A stretch of 52,097 nucleotides of DNA from a virus. Positions within the stretch are counted from its first letter, which is position 1; every line of letters starts with the position of its first letter. The translations under genes were made by a program, and so were the position numbers. The notes beneath the pieces were generated by a model. That model was not told where the DNA came from and did no database searches. It saw nothing but the letters and a program-made list of their open reading frames with translations. Below, piece after piece: positions 1,434 through 21,640 of the stretch. Location: the IMG/VR virus record IMGVR_UViG_3300049847_000386, positions 1 through 52,097 of that record; one strand, written 5' to 3'.

Positions 1434-2071
1434 GCCTTTTTGGCCATCAGTTCATTGGCCGCCTCCTTCCACTTGGGAACGACGGCCTTCTTTGCTCCCA
1501 GACCAGCGGCATCGAGCGCCTTTTCGATCTCCGCAATGGAGGCATCGGCGAGCTTGGCATAGGTGGTGATGCCAATGGAGCGCAGCGCCTCGATGGACTT
1601 CACGCTGGTGTGCGGCACCTTGGTCATGTCGTCGGCCGCCTGGGCGGGCTCATCTTGAGCAGCCACAGGAGCGGCCTGGGCGGGTTGGGCCTTGGCGACG
1701 GGGGCGGGAGGCGCTTCTTGGGCTGGTTCCGGGGCCGCTTCGGGCTTCGATGGCACCGTGAAGCCTTCGTCCTTCAGTACGTCCTCCGTTGTCACGGTGG
1801 CGCCAGCGATCGCGCTTGCTTCCTGCGCCTTCATCTTGGCGGCCTCCTCGATCTCCTTGGGGATGAAGGTAGGGCCTGCTGGGCCTGCCACTTTCACCGC
1901 GCCGGCCTTCGCGGAGGCTTTCGCTTCCCCCGCGGTCATGCTCTTCAAGAAGGTGTAGCCCTTGCGCTTGTTGCCCTGCTCCTTTGAGGACTTCATCAGG
2001 TCCCAGATGCGCTCGGTCACCTCCTTCTGCTGACCCTTAGCGTTCACGATCAGAATTGTGTTCTCGGCCAT
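1430..2071 (-). CDS. Head-region protein with Pro/Ala linker and HhH-like C-terminus
   Basis: A 213-aa protein in three parts. The N-terminal about 80 residues resemble the 86-aa neighbour and contain PTFIPKEI. A low-complexity Pro/Ala/Glu/Gln linker covers about residues 105-150. The C-terminal 55 residues (SVKSIEALRSIGITTYAKLA and onward) look like a helix-hairpin-helix of the kind that binds DNA or protein. I chose ATG at 2071 because the upstream frame runs through a terminator. A promoter-like motif precedes it. Function unknown; a structural or DNA-contacting head protein is plausible. Confidence 0.6.
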   Translation of the reverse strand: MAENTILIVNAKGQQKEVTERIWDLMKSSKEQGNKRKGYTFLKSMTAGEAKASAKAGAVKVAGPAGPTFIPKEIEEAAKMKAQEASAIAGATVTTEDVLKDEGFTVPSKPEAAPEPAQEAPPAPVAKAQPAQAAPVAAQDEPAQAADDMTKVPHTSVKSIEALRSIGITTYAKLADASIAEIEKALDAAGLGAKKAVVPKWKEAANELMAKKA

Positions 2072-2086
2072 GCGTGATGTTTTGGA

Positions 2087-2100
2087 ATGCGGCGAATGTA
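2087..2100 (-). promoter_or_regulatory. Late promoter-like motif TACATTCGCCGCAT
   Basis: The minus strand reads TACATTCGCCGCAT, 16 bases before the ATG at 2071 and just after a terminator. It is one mismatch from the Bacteroidota -7 element TAnnTTTG and closely matches motifs before the portal gene, the 121-aa gene and the 184-aa tail gene. Recurrence at gene starts is the main evidence. Confidence 0.45.
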
Positions 2101-2114
2101 TGAACGAAATGTTC

Positions 2115-2146
2115 TGAAAATGCAAGAGGCCCCACAAGGGGGCCTC
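2115..2146 (-). terminator. Rho-independent terminator
   Basis: On the minus strand GAGGCCCC, a 5-base loop and GGGGCCTC form a perfect 8-bp stem (2126-2146), followed by TTGCATTTT. It lies between the 112-aa gene and the next transcription start, so it probably ends the packaging and portal operon. Confidence 0.75.
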
Positions 2147-2167
2147 CGCATCGGATGGTCAGATCGC

Positions 2168-2506
2168 TCAGGCGCGAGGCTCGTCCCCGAGCTCGCGGGC
2201 GTCCGCACTCACGGCTTCCGCCGCGTTGTAGACGTCGATGGCCAGCCAGAACACAACCTCCCGGTTTGCGCTCTGCAGCTGGATCTCGCCCTTACCAACC
2301 GCCGTCGCCTTGACGCGCGCAGACAGCCCTGTGGTTGCCTCCCGCACGTCCGTGATGGCATCGCCAATGGTAGACCAGCGCAGCGCCTCGGCGCCTTCCT
2401 CGACTTGCTCCAGAACGATGTCGAAGGTCTGGTCAAGGGCAACGCGCACCTCCTGCGTGCTGCTCTGCACGAAGGCCACGTTGCTGAAGGTGAGCTTCGC
2501 TACCAT
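2168..2506 (-). CDS. Small head-region protein, paralogue of next gene upstream
   Basis: A 112-aa protein, mostly predicted beta strand, ending in DARELGDEPRA. The neighbouring 121-aa protein ends in DAREVADEPRA and both have a similar mixed beta profile, so the two look like a duplicated pair. I chose ATG at 2506, two bases after the previous stop; the longer frame upstream is a shadow of the neighbouring genes. Position among portal, MuF and capsid genes suggests a head or decoration role. No family recognised. Confidence 0.65.
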   Translation of the reverse strand: MVAKLTFSNVAFVQSSTQEVRVALDQTFDIVLEQVEEGAEALRWSTIGDAITDVREATTGLSARVKATAVGKGEIQLQSANREVVFWLAIDVYNAAEAVSADARELGDEPRA

Positions 2507-2508
2507 GG

Positions 2509-2874
2509 TCAGGCGCGGGGTTCGTCGGCGACCTCGCGGGCATCGAACACGATGGCCTCGGCGGGCAGCGTGGTGGTGGTGATCACCAGCTCCAGCTTGT
2601 TCACCTCCTCGCCCACGCGGGTGTCGATGAAGGCGCGCGTGGTGCTCGTGCTGGGCAGGTCCGTTGCACTCGCGTCGGACTTCACCACGATCTGCATGCC
2701 GCTCGGGTCGGCTGCGGTGTCGACGGAAACCTCCGCATTGCCCACCTCGTTCGCGATGCCTTGCACCCCGCCATCCGTTACGGCCGGGTTGCCCAGGCTG
2801 TCGCGGAAGTTCTCGAGCTGAAAGCGTTTCTGGCGGTCCTGACGGACCACGGTATTGATGAAGATCTCTGCCAT
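2509..2874 (-). CDS. Small head-region protein, paralogue pair
   Basis: A 121-aa protein starting MAEIFINTVVRQDRQKRFQL and ending DAREVADEPRA. It shares its C-terminal signature with the following 112-aa protein. The middle is Thr, Ser and Val rich, consistent with beta structure. ATG at 2874 sits 14 bases after a promoter-like motif. Unknown function; a minor head or decoration protein is possible. Confidence 0.65.
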   Translation of the reverse strand: MAEIFINTVVRQDRQKRFQLENFRDSLGNPAVTDGGVQGIANEVGNAEVSVDTAADPSGMQIVVKSDASATDLPSTSTTRAFIDTRVGEEVNKLELVITTTTLPAEAIVFDAREVADEPRA

Positions 2875-2887
2875 GTTGTTGGGTTTT

Positions 2888-2903
2888 ATGTGGCGCGAAT
2901 GTA
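2888..2903 (-). promoter_or_regulatory. Late promoter-like motif TACATTCGCGCCACAT
   Basis: The minus strand TACATTCGCGCCACAT matches the motif before the portal gene at 15 of 16 positions. It lies 14 bases before the ATG at 2874 in the short gap after the MuF-like gene. Confidence 0.5.
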
Positions 2904-2916
2904 ACAGCGTCCGCGA

Positions 2917-3849
2917 TCACTCCTTCCGCTTTTCGACGAGGGGCTTCAGGTCCGGCCTCAATGCGAATGCGGTCTGCTCGTCGACGTACATGATCCGGTG
3001 GCGGCAGTTCCAACGGCCCCGGTCCTCCAGCGGGTTGTAGTCGTCGGGCGGACCACCCGCCTCCTTCTCCGACTTGGTGAGCGGGAGAGTGCTGTCCTTG
3101 GGCCAGTCGCGCTTCGCTTCCTCCGTGGTGTAGACCTTGTTGTTGCGCGCCTTGCAGAAGGGCCTGCTGGTTTCGATCAGGCCCCCGCTGTAGATGAAGT
3201 ATCGCAGCCCAAGGCGCTCGGCGAAGGCGTTGTGAATGATGCTGTCCGCGACCTGGTACGTGTCCAGAACGAAGCCCCCGATGTGGCGCTCCAGCACGCC
3301 GCTGGTGTTCTTCGTGCCCTGCACCTTCAGCTTCAACGCGCGCTCGAGCTTGCGCATGGGCACGCCAGCGCTCACGGCCTTGGCCACCATCTTCTTGATC
3401 TCGTCCCGGGCGTTCCGGTTGCGCACCAGGTCGTCGAGGTAGCCTTTGCGCATCACCTTGCCGTCCGGATCGATGCCGAGGCGCTTGCGCATGGCTGCGT
3501 CCGCCGCCGCCTTCAGGGCCCCGATGTCCTTGCCCTTTGCCAGTGGAACGAACTGCTCGGTGGATGCCGCCAGAACGCGCTGCATGTCGGACGCTGTGTT
3601 CTGCACAAACTCCCCCAGGTGCTCGGCCTCGATGGCGTCGAACACCTGGTCGATGGCCTTGGCCAGACTGACAAATCCCTTTCTGCTGGTGATCCGTCCG
3701 CCGTCGCTGGATAGCTCCTCCACCATGCGCACCCACACCTTGTCGAACAGGGCGCGCTCGACGGCGTTCAGCTCCTTCAGGCGCTTCTTCTGCCGGTCAT
3801 CGAGCAGCCTGTCCGCTGCCTTTGCTGCTTTGCGAATCTTGGCGATCAC
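2917..3849 (-). CDS. MuF-like phage head morphogenesis protein
   Basis: A 310-aa protein with a helical N-terminal region and a C-terminal Cys/His region typical of the Mu gpF / SPP1 gp7 minor head family: YSGGLIETSRPFCKARN, a conserved Trp, then RGRWNCRHRIMYV near the end. Family members are minor head proteins made next to the portal and needed for capsid assembly or DNA entry. Its start overlaps the portal stop as ATGA, the usual portal-MuF pairing. Confidence 0.85.
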   Translation of the reverse strand: MIAKIRKAAKAADRLLDDRQKKRLKELNAVERALFDKVWVRMVEELSSDGGRITSRKGFVSLAKAIDQVFDAIEAEHLGEFVQNTASDMQRVLAASTEQFVPLAKGKDIGALKAAADAAMRKRLGIDPDGKVMRKGYLDDLVRNRNARDEIKKMVAKAVSAGVPMRKLERALKLKVQGTKNTSGVLERHIGGFVLDTYQVADSIIHNAFAERLGLRYFIYSGGLIETSRPFCKARNNKVYTTEEAKRDWPKDSTLPLTKSEKEAGGPPDDYNPLEDRGRWNCRHRIMYVDEQTAFALRPDLKPLVEKRKE

Positions 3850-5879
3850 TGGCCTGATGGGGGATCAGCAGGTGGATCGTTCGGGTTGGGGTCTCCGTTC
3901 CCGGCGCCGCCATTCCCTCCAGCATCCCCGGCAACGCCCAAGGTCGGACGAGCAGCGTTGGCCTCCGCGGCTGCAGCGTCCAGCTCGTCCACGATCTCCG
4001 CAACGATGGCGTCGATGATCTCCTGCTGCTTATCGCGCGTCAGCTCGTAGAAGTCCAGGTTGTCGGCACCCGCCCGCTCTTCGGCCTCCCGGAAGACGTA
4101 GCCCATGTTGGTCCATAACACAGCCAGGTCCTGGGTGGTGCGGTCTTGGCTGATGAGCTGCAAGCACGTGCCCTCCTCCTTGCCCGCGAATGGGTCGAAG
4201 GACAGCATGCACTTGGCCCGCTTCAGCGCGCGCTCGTCGTCCACGTAGAGGTGCTCGATCAGGTCAGAATCCACCTGCATCAGCATGGCCCCGGATAGCC
4301 CAGCCTCCTTCATCGCCTTTCGGAGCGCCACCATGTCGTTGGTGGTTTCGAAGCGCAGGTTGCGGGGGAACTGGTGGGCCAGCTCCAGCTTCTTCGCCTT
4401 GTCGCTTCCGATGCCGAAGGTGGCCGTCAGGCGGTAGACCTTCATGCGGACCATGCTCCACCAATCCACCGCAGGGCGGATGGCATCGTAGACGCTCTGC
4501 ATGTCGATCAGCTCGCCCGTGGCCGTGGACTGCAATTGGTCCTGCCGGAAGCGCTCTGTGTTGTAGACGGCCCGGTAGCACTTGGCCTCGAGCTTGTCCA
4601 CGTACCCGTCCTGCCAATTGAGAACCTCCACGGGTAGCTGGACGTAGTGCACCAAGTTCGCCAGCTCCAGAAACTCCTCCTTCGTGCGCGGGAGGCGCAG
4701 GGTCATGTGGTCCTGGGCGCTGCTGATAACATCCCAGCCCGATCCGCCGCACTGCTGGCACTTGCGCGAGGTGCCCTGCTCAAAGCCGTTGAGGCAGTCC
4801 CACTTCCGGCCATCCACGTCGGTGTGGCCCTTGCATGGGTTGGCATACTGGATCTTCTGCAGGAAGGCATGCAGCGCCGCGGTGATGTCCAGCTCGCTGC
4901 CCGCCTTGATGCCCTTGAGCATGTACGGCAGGGCCGCGTGCCAGAAGTTCACGCAGGTGCGGCCGCTGGTCACGGGATCGGCGATGTATCCGATGCGGAA
5001 CGCCTGCACCTCGCCGCTCTTCTGCTCAAAGAAGCGGACCTCGTACAGCTCCACCTTGCTGACGCGGTAGAAGTACGCCTTCTCCGTGTCGAACTTCACG
5101 CCGCTGGCATCCTCGGGCACGGGCTTGCCCTTGGCATCCACAAGCACGCTCTCCATGCTCGTGGGCGCGTTGGCCGGGTCGGTCTGGATGAACTCCACCT
5201 GGTGGTCACGCAGGTACATGCAGAACCAGTTGCCATCCATCATCACCATTTCCGGGGCCTTGCCCGTTGCCTTGCCGGGAGCCTTCGTCTTCGCATCGGG
5301 CTCCTTGCGGGCATTGTACTTCATCGGGCGGTGCACCAGCAGCCAGCGCAGGTCTCCGTTCACGATCTCGAAGTTCCACGCGTCCGTGCTGGACACTATG
5401 GTCGGGTAGACGGTGGGCTTCTCCGTGCGCGGGTCGAACTTGTCGAAGGTCACCAGGCAGAACGCGTTGGGGTCGATGGCGCCTTGGTCCAGCAGCACCG
5501 AACCGAGGAAGTGGTCCACGCTCTTGCCGTTGTAGAAGTTCTGCACCATGCGGCGCAGCTCCTCGTTGTCGGTCTTCGCCTCGGTGCCGAAGTCCGCGCG
5601 GTCGGTCACTGGCTTCACCGCGGGCAGCTTGCGCAGCGGCCCCATGATGGTGTTGTGGATGGCCGGGGTGATAACCTGCGTGAGCCGAAGGCGCTGCTGG
5701 TACGCCGCATCGTCCTCCCTGCGCGTGAAGCGCTGCAGCAGGTGCCCGATGTCCTTGCCCGTGATCAGCGGCTTGTATAACTTCTGCGAGAGATCGACCA
5801 CGTGGTCGTAGTCCTCGTGCTTGAGCTTGCCGTCGATGTTGCGGAGCGCGATCGTGAGGCCCTTCTGCAGCGTGGTCAT
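3846..5879 (-). CDS. Portal protein with zinc-finger-like insert
   Basis: A 677-aa protein directly after the large terminase. Size and order (TerS, TerL, portal, MuF) identify the portal, the dodecameric DNA gate at one capsid vertex. The true start is ATG at 5879, since the frame upstream overlaps the terminase. Around residues 349-381 there is C349, H352, C362 and C374-QQ-CGGSG, which looks like a zinc knuckle inside the portal body. A Lys/Ala/Pro-rich segment lies near residues 192-210 and the C-terminus is a low-complexity Gly/Asn/Pro/Asp tail. The insert may be common in this portal lineage; I cannot check. Confidence 0.85.
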   Translation of the reverse strand: MTTLQKGLTIALRNIDGKLKHEDYDHVVDLSQKLYKPLITGKDIGHLLQRFTRREDDAAYQQRLRLTQVITPAIHNTIMGPLRKLPAVKPVTDRADFGTEAKTDNEELRRMVQNFYNGKSVDHFLGSVLLDQGAIDPNAFCLVTFDKFDPRTEKPTVYPTIVSSTDAWNFEIVNGDLRWLLVHRPMKYNARKEPDAKTKAPGKATGKAPEMVMMDGNWFCMYLRDHQVEFIQTDPANAPTSMESVLVDAKGKPVPEDASGVKFDTEKAYFYRVSKVELYEVRFFEQKSGEVQAFRIGYIADPVTSGRTCVNFWHAALPYMLKGIKAGSELDITAALHAFLQKIQYANPCKGHTDVDGRKWDCLNGFEQGTSRKCQQCGGSGWDVISSAQDHMTLRLPRTKEEFLELANLVHYVQLPVEVLNWQDGYVDKLEAKCYRAVYNTERFRQDQLQSTATGELIDMQSVYDAIRPAVDWWSMVRMKVYRLTATFGIGSDKAKKLELAHQFPRNLRFETTNDMVALRKAMKEAGLSGAMLMQVDSDLIEHLYVDDERALKRAKCMLSFDPFAGKEEGTCLQLISQDRTTQDLAVLWTNMGYVFREAEERAGADNLDFYELTRDKQQEIIDAIVAEIVDELDAAAAEANAARPTLGVAGDAGGNGGAGNGDPNPNDPPADPPSGQ

Positions 5880-5891
5880 TTCATGGAGCGG

Positions 5892-5907
5892 ATGTGGTGC
5901 GAATGTA
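5892..5907 (-). promoter_or_regulatory. Late promoter-like motif TACATTCGCACCACAT
   Basis: The minus strand TACATTCGCACCACAT lies 13 bases before the portal ATG, in the only gap between terminase and portal. It nearly matches motifs at 2888 and 2087 and resembles the Bacteroidota -7 consensus TAnnTTTG with one change. Confidence 0.5.
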
Positions 5908-5911
5908 TGCG

Positions 5912-7456
5912 CTACCGACGAACGAAGTGCGCGAACTCTTCGGGGAACAGCGCCACGGTCAGGTAGTAGTGCGCCTGCATGCAGTGGCCGTACTTCTCGT
6001 ATCGCACGCCCGTGGCGCGGTCCTTCTCGTACACCTTCAAGATCCCGCCATCGGCTGCCTCCTTCACGTAGACCATGTCCTGCAGCGTGTTGATCATCCC
6101 CGGGTCGAAGGTGACCCAGCACTTGAGCTTCCCGTTCAGGTAGCTGTTGCAGAAGTCGCGCACGATGCCGTGGTTGGGGTTGCGGCGGATCACGCGCATG
6201 GAGTAGTTGTGCAGCCAGGGCGCCAGCTCGCGCTCGATCATGTCGTAGTTGTGGAAGATGCCGTCCACCACCACAGACTGGCGGTTCTTGCCGCTGGCGT
6301 CCCCGTAGACGTAGCATCCGGCAGCGTGCCCGGCGTAGCGCCCATCGCGCAGCTCGTGGGCCAGTGCGCGGCAAACGGCCTCGGGGTGGCTCTCCGGGTG
6401 CTTCAGGCATAGCTCCTGCAGGAAGTGGCAATGCCAGCGCCCGTCCTCCATGGGCCACGCCTGGGCAACGAGGCAGGTGATGTACGGGTGCGCGTTGAAG
6501 TCGAAGGTGAAGTGCAGGGCCAGATCCGGCCGGTACTGGTTGCGCTCCACGTGCTTGTTGGACCGGAAGGCATGCAGGAACTCCTTACCTGTGCGCGGCT
6601 GGATGAGCCAGTCGCCGAACAGCAGGCGGGCCTTCTGGTATTCGTCGTCCAGTAGCTCCAGCTGCCTGCGGTAGCTGGCAACGTGCGCCTTGTCCGGGTT
6701 GTCATCCAGCAGCATCAGCACCTTGCCCATGTGCGGGGGCAGCTCCACCGGGGAGCCGTCCTCGTTGAATACGAACCGGCGCTTCGTCCAGTAATCGCCA
6801 GGGTTGCCTGTGAGCAGGAGCTTCGGCACCAGCCCCTTGGTCCACGTTCCACACTTGTAGCATGACCAGAGCACAGGAAGCCCGGTCTCCTCGTCGATGT
6901 CCACCACGGGGCTCAACTCGGCCATCCGATCGGCCGCGCAGCTGTGGCAGAAGTCGGTCAGGCGATAACGCAGGCGGCTGGCCAGCACGTCCACAGCGAC
7001 CTCCTCCACCTCGTTGGCCTCGTCCACCCCTGCCCGGGTGTATGCCCGACCGCCGAGCCGGGAGTAGTTCGGGTCCCGGGGAAGGTAGGCGAGGTAATCA
7101 AACTGCGTGGTGCTGCCGTTGCACCACGCCACGATGTTCTTGCTCTCGTTGAACGTATAGTGCCGCCCAGGCACCAGCCTCGCCTTGTCGCACACTTCGA
7201 AGAAGGTGACCATGGTGGACTTCCGCAGGTTCTCGGCCGTGGACCTGAACAGCGCCCCAGCCGTGCCCGCAAAGCGCAGCGCCGAGACCACCTCGTAGAG
7301 CACCATGTTGAAGGTCTTTCCCGGGCCGGCCGAACCGCCAGAGAACAGCAGACGGTGCTGCTGGTCGTGCAGGAGGTGCCACAGCTCGGAAGCTCGCTTG
7401 CCGAGGGGCTTGATGCCGTTCTGTGGCCCAACGAAGACCGCCTCCCTATCCGCCAT
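5912..7456 (-). CDS. terL: Terminase large subunit
   Basis: A 514-aa packaging motor. The ATPase domain shows Walker A GGSAGPGKT (40-48), Walker B GVDEAN (143-148) and a coupling-type LTGNPG (215-220). The C-terminal nuclease begins near FTFDFNAHP, with Asp319 as a likely metal ligand. Between them C170/C173 and C199/C202 form a probable zinc-binding insert. The protein cuts concatemers and pumps DNA through the portal. It overlaps the small subunit stop by 11 bases and is followed by the portal gene. Confidence 0.93.
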   Translation of the reverse strand: MADREAVFVGPQNGIKPLGKRASELWHLLHDQQHRLLFSGGSAGPGKTFNMVLYEVVSALRFAGTAGALFRSTAENLRKSTMVTFFEVCDKARLVPGRHYTFNESKNIVAWCNGSTTQFDYLAYLPRDPNYSRLGGRAYTRAGVDEANEVEEVAVDVLASRLRYRLTDFCHSCAADRMAELSPVVDIDEETGLPVLWSCYKCGTWTKGLVPKLLLTGNPGDYWTKRRFVFNEDGSPVELPPHMGKVLMLLDDNPDKAHVASYRRQLELLDDEYQKARLLFGDWLIQPRTGKEFLHAFRSNKHVERNQYRPDLALHFTFDFNAHPYITCLVAQAWPMEDGRWHCHFLQELCLKHPESHPEAVCRALAHELRDGRYAGHAAGCYVYGDASGKNRQSVVVDGIFHNYDMIERELAPWLHNYSMRVIRRNPNHGIVRDFCNSYLNGKLKCWVTFDPGMINTLQDMVYVKEAADGGILKVYEKDRATGVRYEKYGHCMQAHYYLTVALFPEEFAHFVRR

Positions 7457-14223: not shown

Positions 14224-14499
14224 TCATTCCGTTGAACTGGTGAATCCTTCGGCCTTTACTGCGGCGAGGAAAGCGTTAATGATATCCTCGCTATCTCCGT
14301 CATGGATCACTTCCACATCCAAACGTTTCATCCCATCCACCGCCATCTGTATCAACTCCCGATCCTTGGCGCGGACAAGCATATACTCCGAATTGGCCCA
14401 CGACGAGATGCGGCGTGCAACTTCTTCTTTTGAAGAAGATGATTCCACGACACTGGCAAGGATGTTATCGCTCAACAGCGGCTTGTTCTCGGTGATCAT
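14224..14499 (-). CDS. Hypothetical protein next to AT-rich island
   Basis: A 91-aa protein starting MITENKPLLSDNILASVVES. ATG at 14499 overlaps the stop of the broken upstream gene as ATGA; an ATG 24 bases upstream is possible. It is helical and acidic at the C-terminus. It has lower G+C than most phage genes but less skewed than the island. No family recognised. Confidence 0.6.
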   Translation of the reverse strand: MITENKPLLSDNILASVVESSSSKEEVARRISSWANSEYMLVRAKDRELIQMAVDGMKRLDVEVIHDGDSEDIINAFLAAVKAEGFTSSTE

Positions 14500-14777
14500 G
14501 GTATGTCGGTTATCAATTTCCATTTTTTCGCATTTTTCCAGCGCACTTGGATTGTTGATCTTTCGTCATCCGGTGAGGTGACAGGGCGAACAGCGACGTA
14601 TCCCATGAACTCGCCGACGACCACGTACTTTATCCTTCGATCGCTCACGAACGAGGCAGGGCCTTCGCGCTTTCGGCGATATGCTTCTTGCTCATGGTCG
14701 TTCAGGTTGTCGTTTGTAAGCGTTTGCTGTCCGGTGATCTTCGCATAGCCATTGTTAGTACCAATGCCACCAGCGAC
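14496..14777 (-). pseudogene. C-terminal part of a gene apparently cut by the AT-rich island
   Basis: This frame has no early start codon but reads like real protein: NNGYAKITGQQTLTNDNLND onward to KLITDIP, about 87 residues after the island edge at 14754. The only ATG inside (MGYVAVRPVTS) would give 37 aa. It ends in an ATGA overlap with the next gene, as normal phage genes here do. On the other side of the island a 20-codon stub starts just after the helicase stop. I infer that the island split one gene of about 110 aa. Confidence 0.5.
14748..14768. repeat. Trailing box (R''-like) of second cassette, inverted-repeat copy
   Basis: Plus-strand 14754-14762 is GTTAGTACC. The same box opens this cassette on the minus strand at 15101-15109, so the pair is inverted; the surrounding 21 bases match at 18 positions (compare 15095-15115). 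In integron cassettes the box that begins the trailing attC is the reverse complement of the cassette's leading edge, as seen here. The rest of this attC was not found. Confidence 0.6.
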
Positions 14778-15053
14778 CTAATCATACTCGGTGGAAGCAA
14801 TTATGGCAAAATCTTCACCTACTGACAAATCATATAATGAAATTTGTTCGGGCATATCATCGGGGTTTTCTTCATCAAATTCGGTATTCTTTACCATTAT
14901 GGTTTTTGCTTCTTCATCGGTAATTGATTGTAAGTCCTCAATTTCTTGAAGTGGCAAATCAAAATCCGCATCGTAAGATTTTAGTAGGTGTAATTCATTT
15001 TTGGCAGTACACCAATCAATTCTGCCATCGTCAAAAGTTAGTTTGTAAATCAT
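14778..15053 (-). CDS. Acidic 91-aa protein in second AT-rich cassette
   Basis: A 91-aa protein with about 25 Asp/Glu and only about 6 Lys/Arg, so it is strongly acidic. It starts MIYKLTFDDGRIDWCTAKNE. The gene is much more AT-rich than the phage genes, and its TAG lies 15 bases before the trailing box GGTACTAAC. No family recognised. Strong acidity is seen in DNA-mimic anti-restriction proteins, but also in many unrelated small proteins, so this is only a hint. Position inside a cassette suggests a mobile accessory gene. Confidence 0.65.
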   Translation of the reverse strand: MIYKLTFDDGRIDWCTAKNELHLLKSYDADFDLPLQEIEDLQSITDEEAKTIMVKNTEFDEENPDDMPEQISLYDLSVGEDFAIIASTEYD

Positions 15054-15100
15054 TGTATTATTTGTTTTTCGTTAATATTAAAATTCTCGTATGTGGCACC

Positions 15101-15232
15101 GGTACTAACATTGGCTTGCCGTAACTGGCTCGGCTGCTCTTCGTTTGACTTGTCCTGCTTTGTTTGCATGTTCTTTCGTTGTTCGTGTGTCTGTGATGGG
15201 CCAGCTACGTCAAGCCTTGGTCCGTTATGGGC
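15101..15232 (-). other. attC-like recombination site of methyltransferase cassette
   Basis: On the minus strand this reads GCCCATAAC, a spacer, GGCTTGACGTAGCTGGC, 70 bases, GCCAGTTACGGCAAGCC, a spacer and GTTAGTACC. The two inner 17-base arms (15200-15216 and 15113-15129) are complementary at 15 of 17 positions. The outer boxes end in AAC and begin with GTT, as in integron attC sites, and the span of 132 bp is within the attC range. The boxes only partly match the RYYYAAC/GTTRRRY consensus. Confidence 0.65.
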
Positions 15233-15755
15233 AATTGCTACCTGACGTGTTAAAAATGGACTTCATACCCATTAACACTTTGGTTTCGCCCTTATATCCT
15301 CTTTCAAAATGGAAGTTGCCAACCGAAAACCCAAAAGGGTAATCTATCAATTGTCCGCTTCCGTAAATGATTATGCTTTTTATTCCTCCGTATTTGTTAA
15401 TCATTTCCATAATTATTTGCCTTTGAAATATTTTGTTAGTCGGCACTAAGTAGCTTACATTGTCCGCAATCTCAAAGCCTTTTTTTAAGAAGTCCTCAAA
15501 TATGCTGTAGGGTGGGTTTCCAATTACCCAATCTACTTTGCCATCGTATAAAAAAAAGTCTTTGCCCTCTCGTATTTCGCAATATTCTTTATCTTCAGGC
15601 AAATAATTATAAAAAGCTCCATCGCCTTTGCACGGGTCTAAGCATTTCCCTTTTGGGTTTAGCCAACGCACAATGTGTTCACTAACATAAGTCGGTGTAT
15701 AAACTATATCCGCTTCTAAAACGGGCTTCTCCCAAAGTGATGTTTGTATTTCCAT
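15225..15755 (-). CDS. Small N6-adenine DNA methyltransferase in integron-like cassette
   Basis: A 176-aa methyltransferase starting MEIQTSLWEKPVLEADIVYT. LDPCKGDGAFYNYLP matches the SAM-binding motif I and VIGNPPYSIFEDFLKKGF contains the NPPY catalytic motif of adenine N6 enzymes. A late segment, IYGSGQLIDYPFGFSVGNFH, is typical of short phage and mobile-element methyltransferases of this type. I reject the upstream ATG at 15809 because it lies within the recombination site. The stop TAA falls in the trailing box CCCATAAC. Strongly AT-rich compared with the phage, so recently acquired. It probably protects DNA from restriction. Confidence 0.85.
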   Translation of the reverse strand: MEIQTSLWEKPVLEADIVYTPTYVSEHIVRWLNPKGKCLDPCKGDGAFYNYLPEDKEYCEIREGKDFFLYDGKVDWVIGNPPYSIFEDFLKKGFEIADNVSYLVPTNKIFQRQIIMEMINKYGGIKSIIIYGSGQLIDYPFGFSVGNFHFERGYKGETKVLMGMKSIFNTSGSNCP

Positions 15756-15784
15756 TTTTACTTTCTCGTTATTAAACCGCAACT

Positions 15785-15888
15785 GCCCATAACACGGGTT
15801 TTGCGTCATTTTTTGCCTTTAACATTGGTGCTAACTTTGAACATTCGAGTAGGCAAAAAACGAACGCAAAGCCCGAAAACGTTCTGCT
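15785..15888 (-). other. attC-like site at upstream edge of island
   Basis: Two arms, 15795-15817 and 15852-15875, are complementary over 23-24 bases with one bulge and one G-T pair; on the minus strand they start CGGGCTTTGCG and end CGCAAAACCCG. A GTT box (GTTATGGGC, plus strand 15785-15793) closes the site, and an AAC box (minus AGCAGAAC) opens it. GTTATGGGC is the exact reverse complement of the box GCCCATAAC after the methyltransferase gene. Confidence 0.6.
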
Positions 15889-15893
15889 TTCAT
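15831..15893 (-). pseudogene. 20-codon stub, possible N-terminus of the interrupted gene
   Basis: ATG at 15893 follows the helicase stop by five bases and encodes MKAERFRALRSFFAYSNVQS before TAG at 15831. The spacing suits the next gene of the phage operon. It may be the 5' part of the gene whose 3' part lies at 14496-14754. Alternatively the sequence belongs entirely to the attC-like palindrome and is not coding. Confidence 0.35.
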
Positions 15894-15900
15894 GGGTTCA

Positions 15901-17088
15901 TCATCGTTTAGGAATTCTAACAGGAGTGCCGAACGGCACGTTGGTCAATACTCGATCGCCAGACCGGATGTGCCAGCCTCCGTCCTGCGACAGCTCAAGG
16001 TCCTCAATCTTGCCGAACTGCGCAAGGTTGCCGCCCAGGTCCACGACCATGGTGCTGGCCTTCTGGGGGTGGGGACGCATGCCCCGGCCGACCACCTGGT
16101 ACCAGAGCGCCAGCGATCGGGTTGGCCGAGCCATCACCACCGCCTCCAGCTCCGGATAGTCGAAGCCCGTGGTCAGGATGCCCACGTTGGCCACGCAGCG
16201 GATCCTGCCCGCCCGGAAGTCGCTGATGATGCGGTCGCGGGTCTTGGCCGGGGTTTCGGCGGTCACCACCGCCGTGCCGGGGATGGTGCGGGCCAGCATT
16301 TCCGCCTCTCGGACGAACCGGGTGAACACGAGAACGTTCCGCCTGGCGACATCCGGGTGGAACAGGCGGTTCACCACCTGCACCAGCTTGGTGTAGAATC
16401 CGCTCTGCTCGTATTGGGCGCGAACGCTCTCGTCGGTGTAATCAGCCCCGGTGCTGTTCACCTGAAGGGCGTCCCGGTTGATTGTCTTGATCTCGTAGTA
16501 GTCCAACTTTGCGAGGTAGCCCGCATCGAACAGCTCCCGGTTCTGGACGTAGTGAATCACGTCCGAGAAGATGCGCGGGTTGGTCCGGGTGAGGAACTTC
16601 AGGATGCTCCTGCTCATCCCGGTCTTGATGTCCGTCTCCCTGCCCAGGCGGTAAGGGGTGGCCGTCAGGCCCAGCACGCGCACCCCCATCTGGTCCAGCA
16701 CTTCTTCGTACATCCCGCCCTTGGAATTCACAAAATGACACTCGTCGACCAGAACGTATTTGAAGCGCTCCAGCAGGTGGGGCTTGCGCACCACGCTACC
16801 CACGGTGGCGAAGGTCACGTCCTGCATCTTCTTCTGGCCGGCCGATGCGGAGTAGATCCCCGCTCGGTATCCGTAGGCGCAGAGCTTTGCGTGGTTCTGG
16901 GCAAGGATCTCCTTGGATGGCTGGAAGACCAGGGTGGGCTCGGCCAGCTCCCGGATGATGCCCGCGATGACGACCGACTTTCCGGATCCCGTGGGCAGGA
17001 CCAGCAGGCCGTTCCGGTTTCCCTTTGAGCGCAGGTAGGCCACCGCCTTGTCGATGGATTCCTGCTGGTATGGGCGCGGGATGATCAT
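15901..17088 (-). CDS. SF2 DNA helicase (RAD25/UvsW-like)
   Basis: A 395-aa two-domain helicase. It has a Q-type start PRPYQQESIDKAVAYLRSKG, Walker A LPTGSGKS (31-38), DECH (115-118), LTATP (141-145) and a motif VI of the form YQVVGRGMRPH in the C-terminal domain. Compact phage members of this superfamily remodel forks and recombination intermediates. The ATGA overlap with the zinc-ribbon gene upstream puts it in the P2 operon. It ends seven bases before the stub that borders the AT-rich island. Confidence 0.92.
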   Translation of the reverse strand: MIIPRPYQQESIDKAVAYLRSKGNRNGLLVLPTGSGKSVVIAGIIRELAEPTLVFQPSKEILAQNHAKLCAYGYRAGIYSASAGQKKMQDVTFATVGSVVRKPHLLERFKYVLVDECHFVNSKGGMYEEVLDQMGVRVLGLTATPYRLGRETDIKTGMSRSILKFLTRTNPRIFSDVIHYVQNRELFDAGYLAKLDYYEIKTINRDALQVNSTGADYTDESVRAQYEQSGFYTKLVQVVNRLFHPDVARRNVLVFTRFVREAEMLARTIPGTAVVTAETPAKTRDRIISDFRAGRIRCVANVGILTTGFDYPELEAVVMARPTRSLALWYQVVGRGMRPHPQKASTMVVDLGGNLAQFGKIEDLELSQDGGWHIRSGDRVLTNVPFGTPVRIPKR

Positions 17089-19454: not shown

Positions 19455-21143
19455 CTACTTCACCGTCACCTCGGATATGCCCCACCAGTTCCCGTTGGCG
19501 GTCGTACAGGTGATTCGCACCCAGCCTGCTTGAACCGGGGTGAAGGTGGCGGTCGATATGGCCAAACCCGTGAACGAGCCACGGGAGGTGAAGGTGCTCC
19601 CGTTGGTGGAGGTTGATACGGTGAACGTCCGGGGGTAGCTGTTGTCGTAGGTCGGCGGTATGGTGAACGTCACCGTAGAGACGCTGGCGGCTGCTGGCAG
19701 CTTGAGCGTGACCGTCTGGGAGGTGGTGGTCATGGACACTCCGCTCATCCAGTACGTTGCGGGGTTGCCATCGACGGCCATGCTCGCCGGGTTCGTTGAC
19801 GTGGAGGCGAACGCGGTCGCGGTCAATCCAGAAGCCGGGGGGGTGACGGGCCCGGGGTCAACTGGGGGTGTCACCACCCCGCCCGTGGACAGGACCATGT
19901 TCGATCGGCTCTTCAGGTACAGGCCCACTTCGTTGTTCAGCCCGAAGGTGTTTCCCCGCGATGCCCGACCACCCGTAAGGCGAACGCCGGTTGATGCGCA
20001 ATAGAACAGGCTCCCCACGTTCGAGGAGATTTGCACGCCGGTGACGTTCACTTCGTATTCGCCCTGGTCCACGTGTATCAGTTCGTCGCACGTGACCCCG
20101 TTGTAGTCCGCCGTCCCGCCGATGATGTTCAACGTGAGCTGGCCCAATGGACCCTCCACCGATACCATGCGCTGCATCACCCCCCTGCTTTCGCTCTTGG
20201 TGCTGATGAATGTGAATGTTCCGCCGCCAACGCTCTGAGCGTTCATGGGCCGGATGCGGATCAGCCCGCCCCGGTTATTGTCACCACTCAGGGTGCGCCC
20301 GGTCATGTTCGTCAGTCCGTTGTTCCCGAGGAAGTCGAAGCCTGGCCCGCAGTTGTAGAACGCAGAGCACACCTCGACCACGCCGGGGGTGCCGCCGATG
20401 ATCGCGTATCCCGCGTTGTTGAATCCCTCGGCCATGCAGAACGCAACCACGCTGTTCTCACCTGGGTGCGACATGGTAAGGCCGTTGCTTACAAATGTCG
20501 GGTCGTTGGTCATTTCGTTGCGCCCACCAACGAATCGGAAGCCTTCGACCTGCACCCCTTCGGAATAGGCCATGCCGCCGATCACCCCGTAATCCATCCC
20601 CCAGCAGGAAGCGTACATGCAGTTGCGGTCGGGCTGTCGTTTGCTCCATCCAAAGTGGTCGATGCGGATGGACGTGCCCGGGGTGCTTCCGATGTTCGTC
20701 CCGGTCTTCTCGGCGTACACGTTCGGGTGCCGGCCGATGTAGTGGCCCAGGCCCGTCATGCACCCGTAGCGCACGTAGTAGTCGCCATCGGGAGCGATGA
20801 TCGTTCCCCTACTCTGTGTGATGAAGTTGGGGCGGATGTAGATGCCCACGTCCAAGTACGTGTCCGTGTGCCAGACCCAATCGTTCCAAGCGCACTCGAA
20901 CAGATACAGGTCCAGCAGTTCGGCGGTCGGCCAGCCCCGAGCCTGCCAGTACGCGGCGAACGCCGGGAAGCTGTCCTTGGCCATCGCCTCGGTGTACTTC
21001 AGGCCGCGCAAAGTGGCGTCCTTCGACTTGTCCACATGGTAGACCTTCTCCATGTCGCACGTTCCACTCTTGGGATAGATGCGCGGCGCGGAGTGAGCGG
21101 TGAGCGCCACGAACAGCAGCGCCAGTGTGAGGATGTTCTTCAT
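19455..21143 (-). CDS. Secreted beta-helix protein with discoidin-like (F5/8 C) domain
   Basis: A 562-aa protein with a Sec signal peptide (MKNILTLALLFVALTAHSAP). Residues about 60-420 have the irregular Gly/Asn/Val-rich repeats of a right-handed beta-helix (for example GENSVVAFCMAEGFNNAGYA), as in polysaccharide lyases and tailspikes. A Pro/Val linker (VVTPPVDPGPVTPP) leads to a C-terminal domain of about 125 residues resembling F5/8 type C carbohydrate-binding modules (AVDGNPATYWMSG). It starts inside the previous stop (ATGA). It may be a depolymerase; its place in an early operon far from tail genes is odd. Confidence 0.75.
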   Translation of the reverse strand: MKNILTLALLFVALTAHSAPRIYPKSGTCDMEKVYHVDKSKDATLRGLKYTEAMAKDSFPAFAAYWQARGWPTAELLDLYLFECAWNDWVWHTDTYLDVGIYIRPNFITQSRGTIIAPDGDYYVRYGCMTGLGHYIGRHPNVYAEKTGTNIGSTPGTSIRIDHFGWSKRQPDRNCMYASCWGMDYGVIGGMAYSEGVQVEGFRFVGGRNEMTNDPTFVSNGLTMSHPGENSVVAFCMAEGFNNAGYAIIGGTPGVVEVCSAFYNCGPGFDFLGNNGLTNMTGRTLSGDNNRGGLIRIRPMNAQSVGGGTFTFISTKSESRGVMQRMVSVEGPLGQLTLNIIGGTADYNGVTCDELIHVDQGEYEVNVTGVQISSNVGSLFYCASTGVRLTGGRASRGNTFGLNNEVGLYLKSRSNMVLSTGGVVTPPVDPGPVTPPASGLTATAFASTSTNPASMAVDGNPATYWMSGVSMTTTSQTVTLKLPAAASVSTVTFTIPPTYDNSYPRTFTVSTSTNGSTFTSRGSFTGLAISTATFTPVQAGWVRITCTTANGNWWGISEVTVK

Positions 21144-21640
21144 GAGTTGGAGATTAGGAGAATGAACGACACCAGGCCAATGGCGGCCTCGAAGATTACT
21201 GCGGTCCAATAGGGGCTGAAGCCCGTGCGAGCATAGACCGTACGTAGCTCCTCGTGCGTGATGTAGACGCGCTCGACCTTCCGGGTCAGCGACCACCAGA
21301 GGCCATCGTACCAGCTGTCCTTGCGACCGCGGATCGATGGCCCGATGTAGTCGTAGCGAACAGGTGGCGATTTCCGTGTGCAATTAAGCACGTGCCTGTC
21401 GGTGATCGTGAACACCGCGTAGGCCTCGGTGGCCATGAGCAGAAGCCGCCAGGAGACGCTGCCGAATGCGTAGTTGGCCAGCACCATCATTGCGAGGATC
21501 AGCCCAGCGATGATCAACACAACGCGTGCGCGATGTGCGTGGTCGATATCCAGCCCCTCATCAATGTCGCGCGCATCGATCTGGCCCATGACAACGCCCA
21601 TCACCCAGAAGATCAGCAGGACGGCGAACGCGCTCCACAT
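21140..21640 (-). CDS. Multi-pass membrane protein
   Basis: A 166-aa protein with about four hydrophobic segments: residues 3-19, 39-55, 62-78 and a C-terminal one (WTAVIFEAAIGLVSFILLIS). A soluble charged region, including RGRKDSWYDGLWWSLTRKVE, lies between. It overlaps its neighbours as TGATG and ATGA. Unknown function; superinfection exclusion is one possibility for an early phage membrane protein, without direct support. Confidence 0.6.
   Translation of the reverse strand: MWSAFAVLLIFWVMGVVMGQIDARDIDEGLDIDHAHRARVVLIIAGLILAMMVLANYAFGSVSWRLLLMATEAYAVFTITDRHVLNCTRKSPPVRYDYIGPSIRGRKDSWYDGLWWSLTRKVERVYITHEELRTVYARTGFSPYWTAVIFEAAIGLVSFILLISNS

Follow-up and report, generated by a model that had tools for sequence, protein, structure and literature searches.

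A two-cassette integron-type unit with reversed genes in an integrase-less phage genome, with a probable origin in a Chitinophagales integron-like system

A phage genome lacking an integron integrase carries an exactly bounded unit of two integron-type gene cassettes, each with its gene antisense to its own attC site. The genome is viral record IMGVR_UViG_3300049847_000386 of IMG/VR, analysed as a stretch of 52,097 nucleotides (the window). Both arms of the second attC are identical to those of chromosomal arrays in Chitinophagales, and such arrays adjoin a tyrosine recombinase that lacks the I2 domain. It is probable that the unit derives from such a Chitinophagales integron-like system with an I2-less recombinase, was inserted in trans at a GTT in phage DNA and was kept in reversed orientation, with its methyltransferase serving in anti-restriction. 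A preliminary description made from the sequence had proposed two integron-type cassettes in an integrase-less phage, and this core claim is supported both by the G↓TT bounds (arrow, predicted cut) and by one cassette held exactly in common with an unrelated phage.

The composition of the window bears out the AT-rich island described earlier, with 39-44% G+C in 500-bp bins from 14501 to 16000 and about 60-65% in the surroundings. The two-cassette unit spans 14755-15881, is complete on the plus strand only and has a phage G↓TT site at either end, giving the layout phage AGCCATTG↓TTAGTACC..GGTACTAAC-stem1-G↓TTATGGGC..GCCCATAAC-stem2-CG↓TTCTGCTTTCAT phage (Table 1). The preliminary description had instead read the cassettes along the minus strand; this had to be abandoned, since the last cassette is then left without an attC and the first gene is preceded by one.

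Table 1. Positions of the cassettes, genes, attC sites and flanking phage features in the window
Feature	Position	Strand	Details
Target site, left half	14747..14754	+	Phage DNA, AGCCATTG↓; boundary inferred from the leading edge of cassette 1
Cassette 1	14755..15224	+	From leading edge TTAGTACC up to the G preceding the following TT; antisense 91-aa gene and attC1; box pair, stem
91-aa ORF	14778..15053	-	Reversed in cassette 1; no family assigned
attC1	15101..15232	+	R'' GGTACTAAC; arms GGCTTGCCGTAACTGGC / GCCAGCTACGTCAAGCC; R' CG↓TTATGGGC
Cassette 2 (methyltransferase cassette)	15225..15881	+	97.6% over 660 bp with contig L058
176-aa N6_Mtase-like DNA methyltransferase	15225..15755	-	DPCKGDGAF and NPPY motifs; reversed in cassette 2
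attC2	15785 to about 15887-15888	+	R'' GCCCATAAC; arms ACGGGTTTTGCGTCA / GAACGCAAAGCCCGAAAACG; R' position now phage GTTCTGC
Target site, right half	15882..15893	+	Phage DNA, ↓TTCTGCTTTCAT; L058 diverges from the window exactly at GTT
Phage DNA helicase	15901..17088	-	PHROG 16 DNA helicase, 1e-82; directly upstream (gene direction) of the insertion

In both cassettes the leading edge is the exact reverse complement of the trailing R'' box, the two pairs being 9 and 10 bp long (GTTAGTACC at 14754 with GGTACTAAC at 15101-15109; GTTATGGGCA at 15224 with TGCCCATAAC ending at 15793). These pairs had been noted before and offered as diagnostic of integron cassettes; they are real, but alone they are not significant, as two other 10-bp pairs occur elsewhere in the 52-kb window, and box-pair statistics by themselves were rejected as evidence. 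A composite of leading box, trailing box and adjacent stem to GTT was then compared with dinucleotide-shuffled 2.8-kb segments. Two chained matches are present in the window, against a shuffle mean of 0.01 per 2.8-kb segment, and two or more were found in 0 of 400 shuffles. Both of the large palindromes proposed earlier, at 15101-15232 and 15785-15888, were recovered, and when folded as DNA each has a moderate advantage on the minus (bottom) strand (-15.6 versus -11.6 kcal/mol, z -2.4, and -22.5 versus -19.6 kcal/mol, z -3.7, respectively). The R boxes, GTTAGTA and GTTATGG, do not fit RYYYAAC/GTTRRRY, a deviation that had also been pointed out. An Rfam search of 14.0-16.5 kb returned sub-threshold chance matches only.

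When closed up, the target site reads AGCCATTG↓TTCTGCTTTCAT; this ancestral junction is only inferred because an empty-site relative was not found, the empty-site 20-mer having no match in IMG/VR. The phage character of the record is indicated by the helicase, by RecE-like and RecT-like proteins and by weak tail matches. Neither the IntI profile (TIGR02249) nor that of the I2-less recombinase matched anywhere in the window, in agreement with the reported absence of an integrase. After the insertion, tiny ORFs overlap in a chain (ATGA/GTGA) on the minus strand at 14224-14740, and closing the target site would restore a 24-codon ORF starting ATGAAAGCAGAACAATGG. A probable tail or receptor-binding protein of 642 aa, with an F5/8 type C (discoidin) domain at its C-terminus, is encoded at 19455-21383 (minus strand). 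The nearest relative of the helicase (64%; L002, 4986-6665) contains an apparent intein-like insertion after 'VMLPTGCHAKGTRILMADM', ending '..LTEDFTVHHNSGKSL'.

The methyltransferase frame is readable from 15809, the start first given to it, but the conserved ATG at 15755 is preferred and is very likely the start, giving 176 aa. The protein matches Pfam N6_Mtase (2e-4) and the PHROG 799 DNA methyltransferase (1.5e-25), and its AF2 model (pLDDT 84.5) has its best Foldseek matches in the PDB among type I M subunits, CamA and M.TaqI, whose large recognition domains it lacks. The model shows, with confidence, the fold of an adenine-type DNA methyltransferase core. Most likely this enzyme protects phage DNA from host restriction by methylating it, as Qi et al. 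also inferred for similar cassettes (PMC9892861). The 91-aa protein could be assigned to no Pfam, PHROGs, NCBIfam or PADLOC family, lacks relatives in both IMG/VR and phage records, and gave an uninformative AF2 model (pLDDT 36).

Homologues of the methyltransferase cassette exist elsewhere, as had been anticipated: five other viral contigs in IMG/VR encode close relatives (83-96% identity), one of them a prophage of Lacibacter luteus (L059). L058 is another phage, and its flanks are unrelated to those of the window; the match between the two covers exactly 15224-15883, its ends displaced by -1 and +2 nt relative to the predicted cuts, and this exact block defines the mobile unit together with its attC (stem2). 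The methyltransferase of L059 lies beside another cassette (96 aa) with different attC stems, while L061 and L062 carry the gene with still other attCs. A search for the gene in Bacteroidota integron arrays had been proposed; no array carried it in 289 genomes of the order Chitinophagales, in which the sole match was the Lacibacter prophage itself, and the same prophage was the only match in a two-motif pattern scan of 84,980 species genomes. Plasmids yielded matches below 60% identity only, and named phages matches to part of the protein below 45%, with no DNA match to the cassette. L058 and L059 are both Mu-like, with GemA-like proteins 30% identical and the methyltransferase cassette just upstream of the GemA-like gene in each, a possible hotspot; a search for kin through this gene returned only these two in IMG/VR, and remote homologues in genomes.

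The preliminary description had also considered that relatives might be ordinary phage genes without boxes. This is true of most methyltransferases at 79% identity or below, while the close relatives bear boxes; the gene thus circulates among phages, in part as a cassette. The box-less relatives are also what speaks for regarding the two window genes as ordinary phage genes beside chance palindromes or terminators. Such an explanation is scarcely credible, since the composite is absent from the shuffles, and it is refuted by the exact unit common to the window and L058 and by the identity of attC arms with chromosomal arrays.

Sharp block ends were found in five contig sets (window/L058; L246/L265 and L267; L256/L290; L258/L295; L279/L272), whose common blocks stop within -2 to +4 nt of the predicted G↓TT cuts; the L246/L254 and L246/L264 blocks extend 9 nt beyond the 3' cut. 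An 18-mer arm of attC2, AACACGGGTTTTGCGTCA, occurs in 60 IMG/VR stretches, most of which also contain the other arm together with a 9-bp box pair free of mismatches, and sampled cassette-bearing contigs encode terminase, portal, replicative helicase and primase as phage hallmarks. The presence of one arm in many phages provides 20-40 bp of homology and, together with the RecE-like and RecT-like proteins of the window, would be compatible with a present-day spread by homologous (RecT/RecE-type) recombination through common attC arms, the first capture alone being integron-mediated. We regard this as improbable: the common blocks stop at G↓TT on both sides, the window and L058 have no common attC outside the block, and the window site and the cassette have only GTT in common.

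By eye, many proteins of the viral cassettes carry DPPY/SPPY/NPPY methyltransferase motifs. In contig L080 (IMGVR_UViG_3300048930_000528, 4581-6713) at least four cassettes stand in a row. Their boxes are of the GAAC/GTTC type (CCCCGAAC/GTTCGGGG among them), a distinct attC type on a phage contig, and the row includes two methyltransferase-like genes that are sense to one reading. At least four attC cassettes lie near a portal-like gene in L074 (IMGVR_UViG_3300047181_000017, 1603-6142); their genes are antisense, one being PAPS-reductase-like (VSFSGGKDST), and one attC has two extrahelical-like bases.

The guess that the cassettes belonged with Bacteroidota proved right, as attCs of Chitinophagales chromosomal arrays in L203 and L216 have exactly the same two arms as attC2. 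(The order was named from the membership of Lacibacter in Chitinophagales.) In the phylum sample, 105 of 396 genomes encode IntI above cut-off; in the order, 1 of 299 does. A search among near-misses led to tyrosine recombinases adjoining attC arrays in G051 and G018, and a profile built from four members detected this family in 146 of the 299 order genomes. At least one attC-like site was present in 22 of 44 recombinase neighbourhoods, which averaged 8.8 sites per 100 kb compared with 0.53 at control phage loci and 0.43 in shuffles. Over 19 loci, 72 sites lay downstream of the recombinase and 9 upstream, and 64 were oriented forward and 3 in reverse relative to it. This association between recombinase and arrays is correlative. 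The first leading box begins 74-571 nt beyond the recombinase stop codon (13 loci), with an A/T-rich TATATTTA-like motif ahead of the GTT in 7 of the 13, and this site just downstream of the recombinase is a candidate attI-like site. Among 50 cassette-bearing viral records, 4 matched the recombinase, 3 of these with internal stop codons. At the N-terminus the family carries an additional domain of some 45 residues (HRG..W..WxIPY; L167, 8351-9760, doubled; L165, 2629-3744; L168, 9270-10463), for which one member gave a sub-threshold DUF5710 match. Chitinophagales contigs L221, L223, L230, L231, L235 and L239 stop a few hundred bases past the recombinase, as if cassette repeats had broken the assembly.

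The distance from the K-motif to HxxRH is 100 residues in 20/20 IntI proteins, 58-59 in the I2-less family (12 measured) and 66 in XerD. Against TIGR02249 (cut-off 265 bits), three of four family members scored 225-236 bits and the Lacibacter member 168, while NF040815 (XerA-like) was the best or near-best NCBIfam match to the catalytic part (192-237 bits). IntI formed one clade in the tree (100/99) with the I2-less family outside; because long branches meet, placement relative to IntI is unsafe, and ancestral or derived status is not claimed. The absence of I2 is accompanied by an absence of extrahelical bases, which I2 reads (PMC4792948). The net number of extra bases on the R'' arm is +3.0 in IntI arrays, +0.19 in Chitinophagales and -0.07 in viral sites; attC1 has none on its R''-L'' arm and attC2 one, on the opposite arm. 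Without extrahelical bases the spacer can still determine strand choice (Bouvier 2009, PMC2727003), and the C→GTT asymmetry of these attCs would fit this.

A classical, I2-bearing IntI of an integron-carrying host could also have acted, given the IntI-bearing hosts elsewhere in the phylum sample, and IntI1 recombined 5/6 tested phage-borne attCs (Qi 2023, PMC9892861). The Chitinophagales recombinase would then be a bystander. We consider this unlikely, as the window attCs are without the extrahelical bases recognised by I2, their arms match those of arrays adjoining the I2-less enzyme exactly, and the order bearing those arrays has almost no IntI above cut-off.

Direction was assigned by a rule calibrated on integrase-bearing arrays, in which C precedes R' and A or C follows R''. 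By this rule (C→GTT / R''→A for cassette 1) both window attCs point along the plus strand and the genes are antisense, and as a cross-check the Chitinophagales attCs in L203 and L216 with arms identical to attC2 carry sense genes. Counting distinct cassettes with an ORF of at least 80 aa, sense and antisense cassettes numbered 44 and 0 in chromosomes and 2 and 64 in viruses (Fisher p = 9e-29), with 23 and 3 in classical IntI arrays. Restricted to the identical attC core, the counts, which were not deduplicated, were 6/0 and 0/27, respectively. The two viral sense 'genes' (L248/L253 and L266/L284; 80-90 aa) look less like real genes than like antisense ORFs of low complexity. Of 69 viral cassette genes, 55 (about 80%) follow the majority strand of their neighbours.

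The orientation might be read the other way, with the attCs running with the genes, the unit opened at R'' by top-strand recombination, the genes sense and the insertion unusual. Consistent with this, the one extra base of attC2 sits on the R' arm of the plus reading, and R'' cutting has been observed once strand selection is lost (Bouvier 2009, PMC2727003). A cut at R'' was entertained from that base and dropped after the integrase-array calibration and the comparison of identical attCs. It is quite improbable, as identical attCs in recombinase-linked arrays are all oriented like the window plus strand, with sense genes, and the two extra bases in L074 lie on the arm predicted by the plus reading.

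Taken together, these results suggest that the unit entered the phage in trans, at a GTT lying between the helicase gene and the small genes that come next. The R' G↓TT of a single cassette circle, or of two circles one after the other, would have recombined with the attG-like phage GTT, the recombinogenic strand being the window minus strand. The putative source is a Bacteroidota (Chitinophagales) system with a XerA/IntI-like tyrosine recombinase without I2, an attI-like site shortly after the recombinase gene and an array of attCs free of extrahelical bases; we infer that this recombinase moves the cassettes. Phages would tap its methyltransferase-rich cassette pool and retain cassettes whose gene is reversed relative to the attC. 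Two further points temper this proposal. The host of the phage may not be Chitinophagales, because the phage has 60-65% G+C, and with extrahelical bases absent the strand has to be chosen by the spacer rule, the extra base of attC2 being on the R' arm.

In chromosomal integrons the leading-strand template carries the recombinogenic attC strand, and inversion of a Vibrio array sharply raised excision (PMC11023631). One idea is that reversed genes, in phages whose genes run along replication, put this strand on the lagging template. A wider proposal, to which we give an even chance, is that Chitinophagales harbour an integron lineage in which the recombinase has lost I2, or was without it from the start, and the attCs lack extrahelical bases. 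This would be an intermediate or parallel solution of the kind that the I2/attC chicken-and-egg problem demands (Escudero 2016), with phages exploiting reversed, hyper-mobile cassettes whose recombinogenic strand is on the lagging-strand template where genes are co-oriented with replication.

I2 has been described as necessary for cassette capture and absent from every other protein (PMC7790495), and the rise of integrons has been credited to this innovation (PMC7790495, PMC4792948). The existence of a widespread attC system whose associated recombinase has no I2 and whose attCs have no extrahelical bases makes the origin of integrons directly testable. Surveys requiring the IntI-specific domain would record these arrays as orphan clusters. 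For Bacteroidota phages, the system would provide a common exchangeable pool of methyltransferase and other cassettes, and the sharp split between sense genes in chromosomes and antisense genes in phages is a testable rule.

Phage-borne integron cassettes and CALINs, methyltransferases included, have already been published. Qi et al. 2023 (PMC9892861) described 17 CALINs in 10,705 phage genomes, for example TJE1, P12002L and PH101, and tested them with IntI1; like the unit described here, these are attC-bounded cassettes, some with methyltransferases, in integrase-less phages. The gp35 methyltransferase of Polaribacter phage P12002L (L151, 29237-30055) is by inspection likewise reversed relative to its attC (GTTAGGCAC..GTGCCTAAC). 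Beyond that work, we describe exact cassette sharing by unrelated phages, a Chitinophagales attC type, systematic reversal and a candidate non-IntI recombinase. From sequence comparison, what appears to be new is that attC2 is a Chitinophagales array attC, that such arrays stand beside an I2-less recombinase, and that polarity splits between viruses and chromosomes; neither an I2-less recombinase tied to attC arrays nor the polarity reversal was found in searches of open-access papers, so that priority is not certain. Bacteroidota are among the phyla listed with integrons (PMC8618304). With sedentary chromosomal integrons (IntI, attI and attC array) the system shares G↓TT cuts, R''/R' boxes, the leading/trailing rule, folded attC stems and a recombinase-adjacent array; it differs in that the recombinase has no I2 domain and falls short of the cut-off for integron integrases, the attCs lack extrahelical bases, and the array is downstream of, and co-directional with, the recombinase. 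Array and recombinase also run the same way in the 'reverse' integrons of Spirochaetes (PMC9668308), but those have IntI proper in place of the I2-less family. The catalytic part resembles XerA-like recombinases (NF040815), to which the Chitinophagales family adds its N-terminal domain and a linked attC array.
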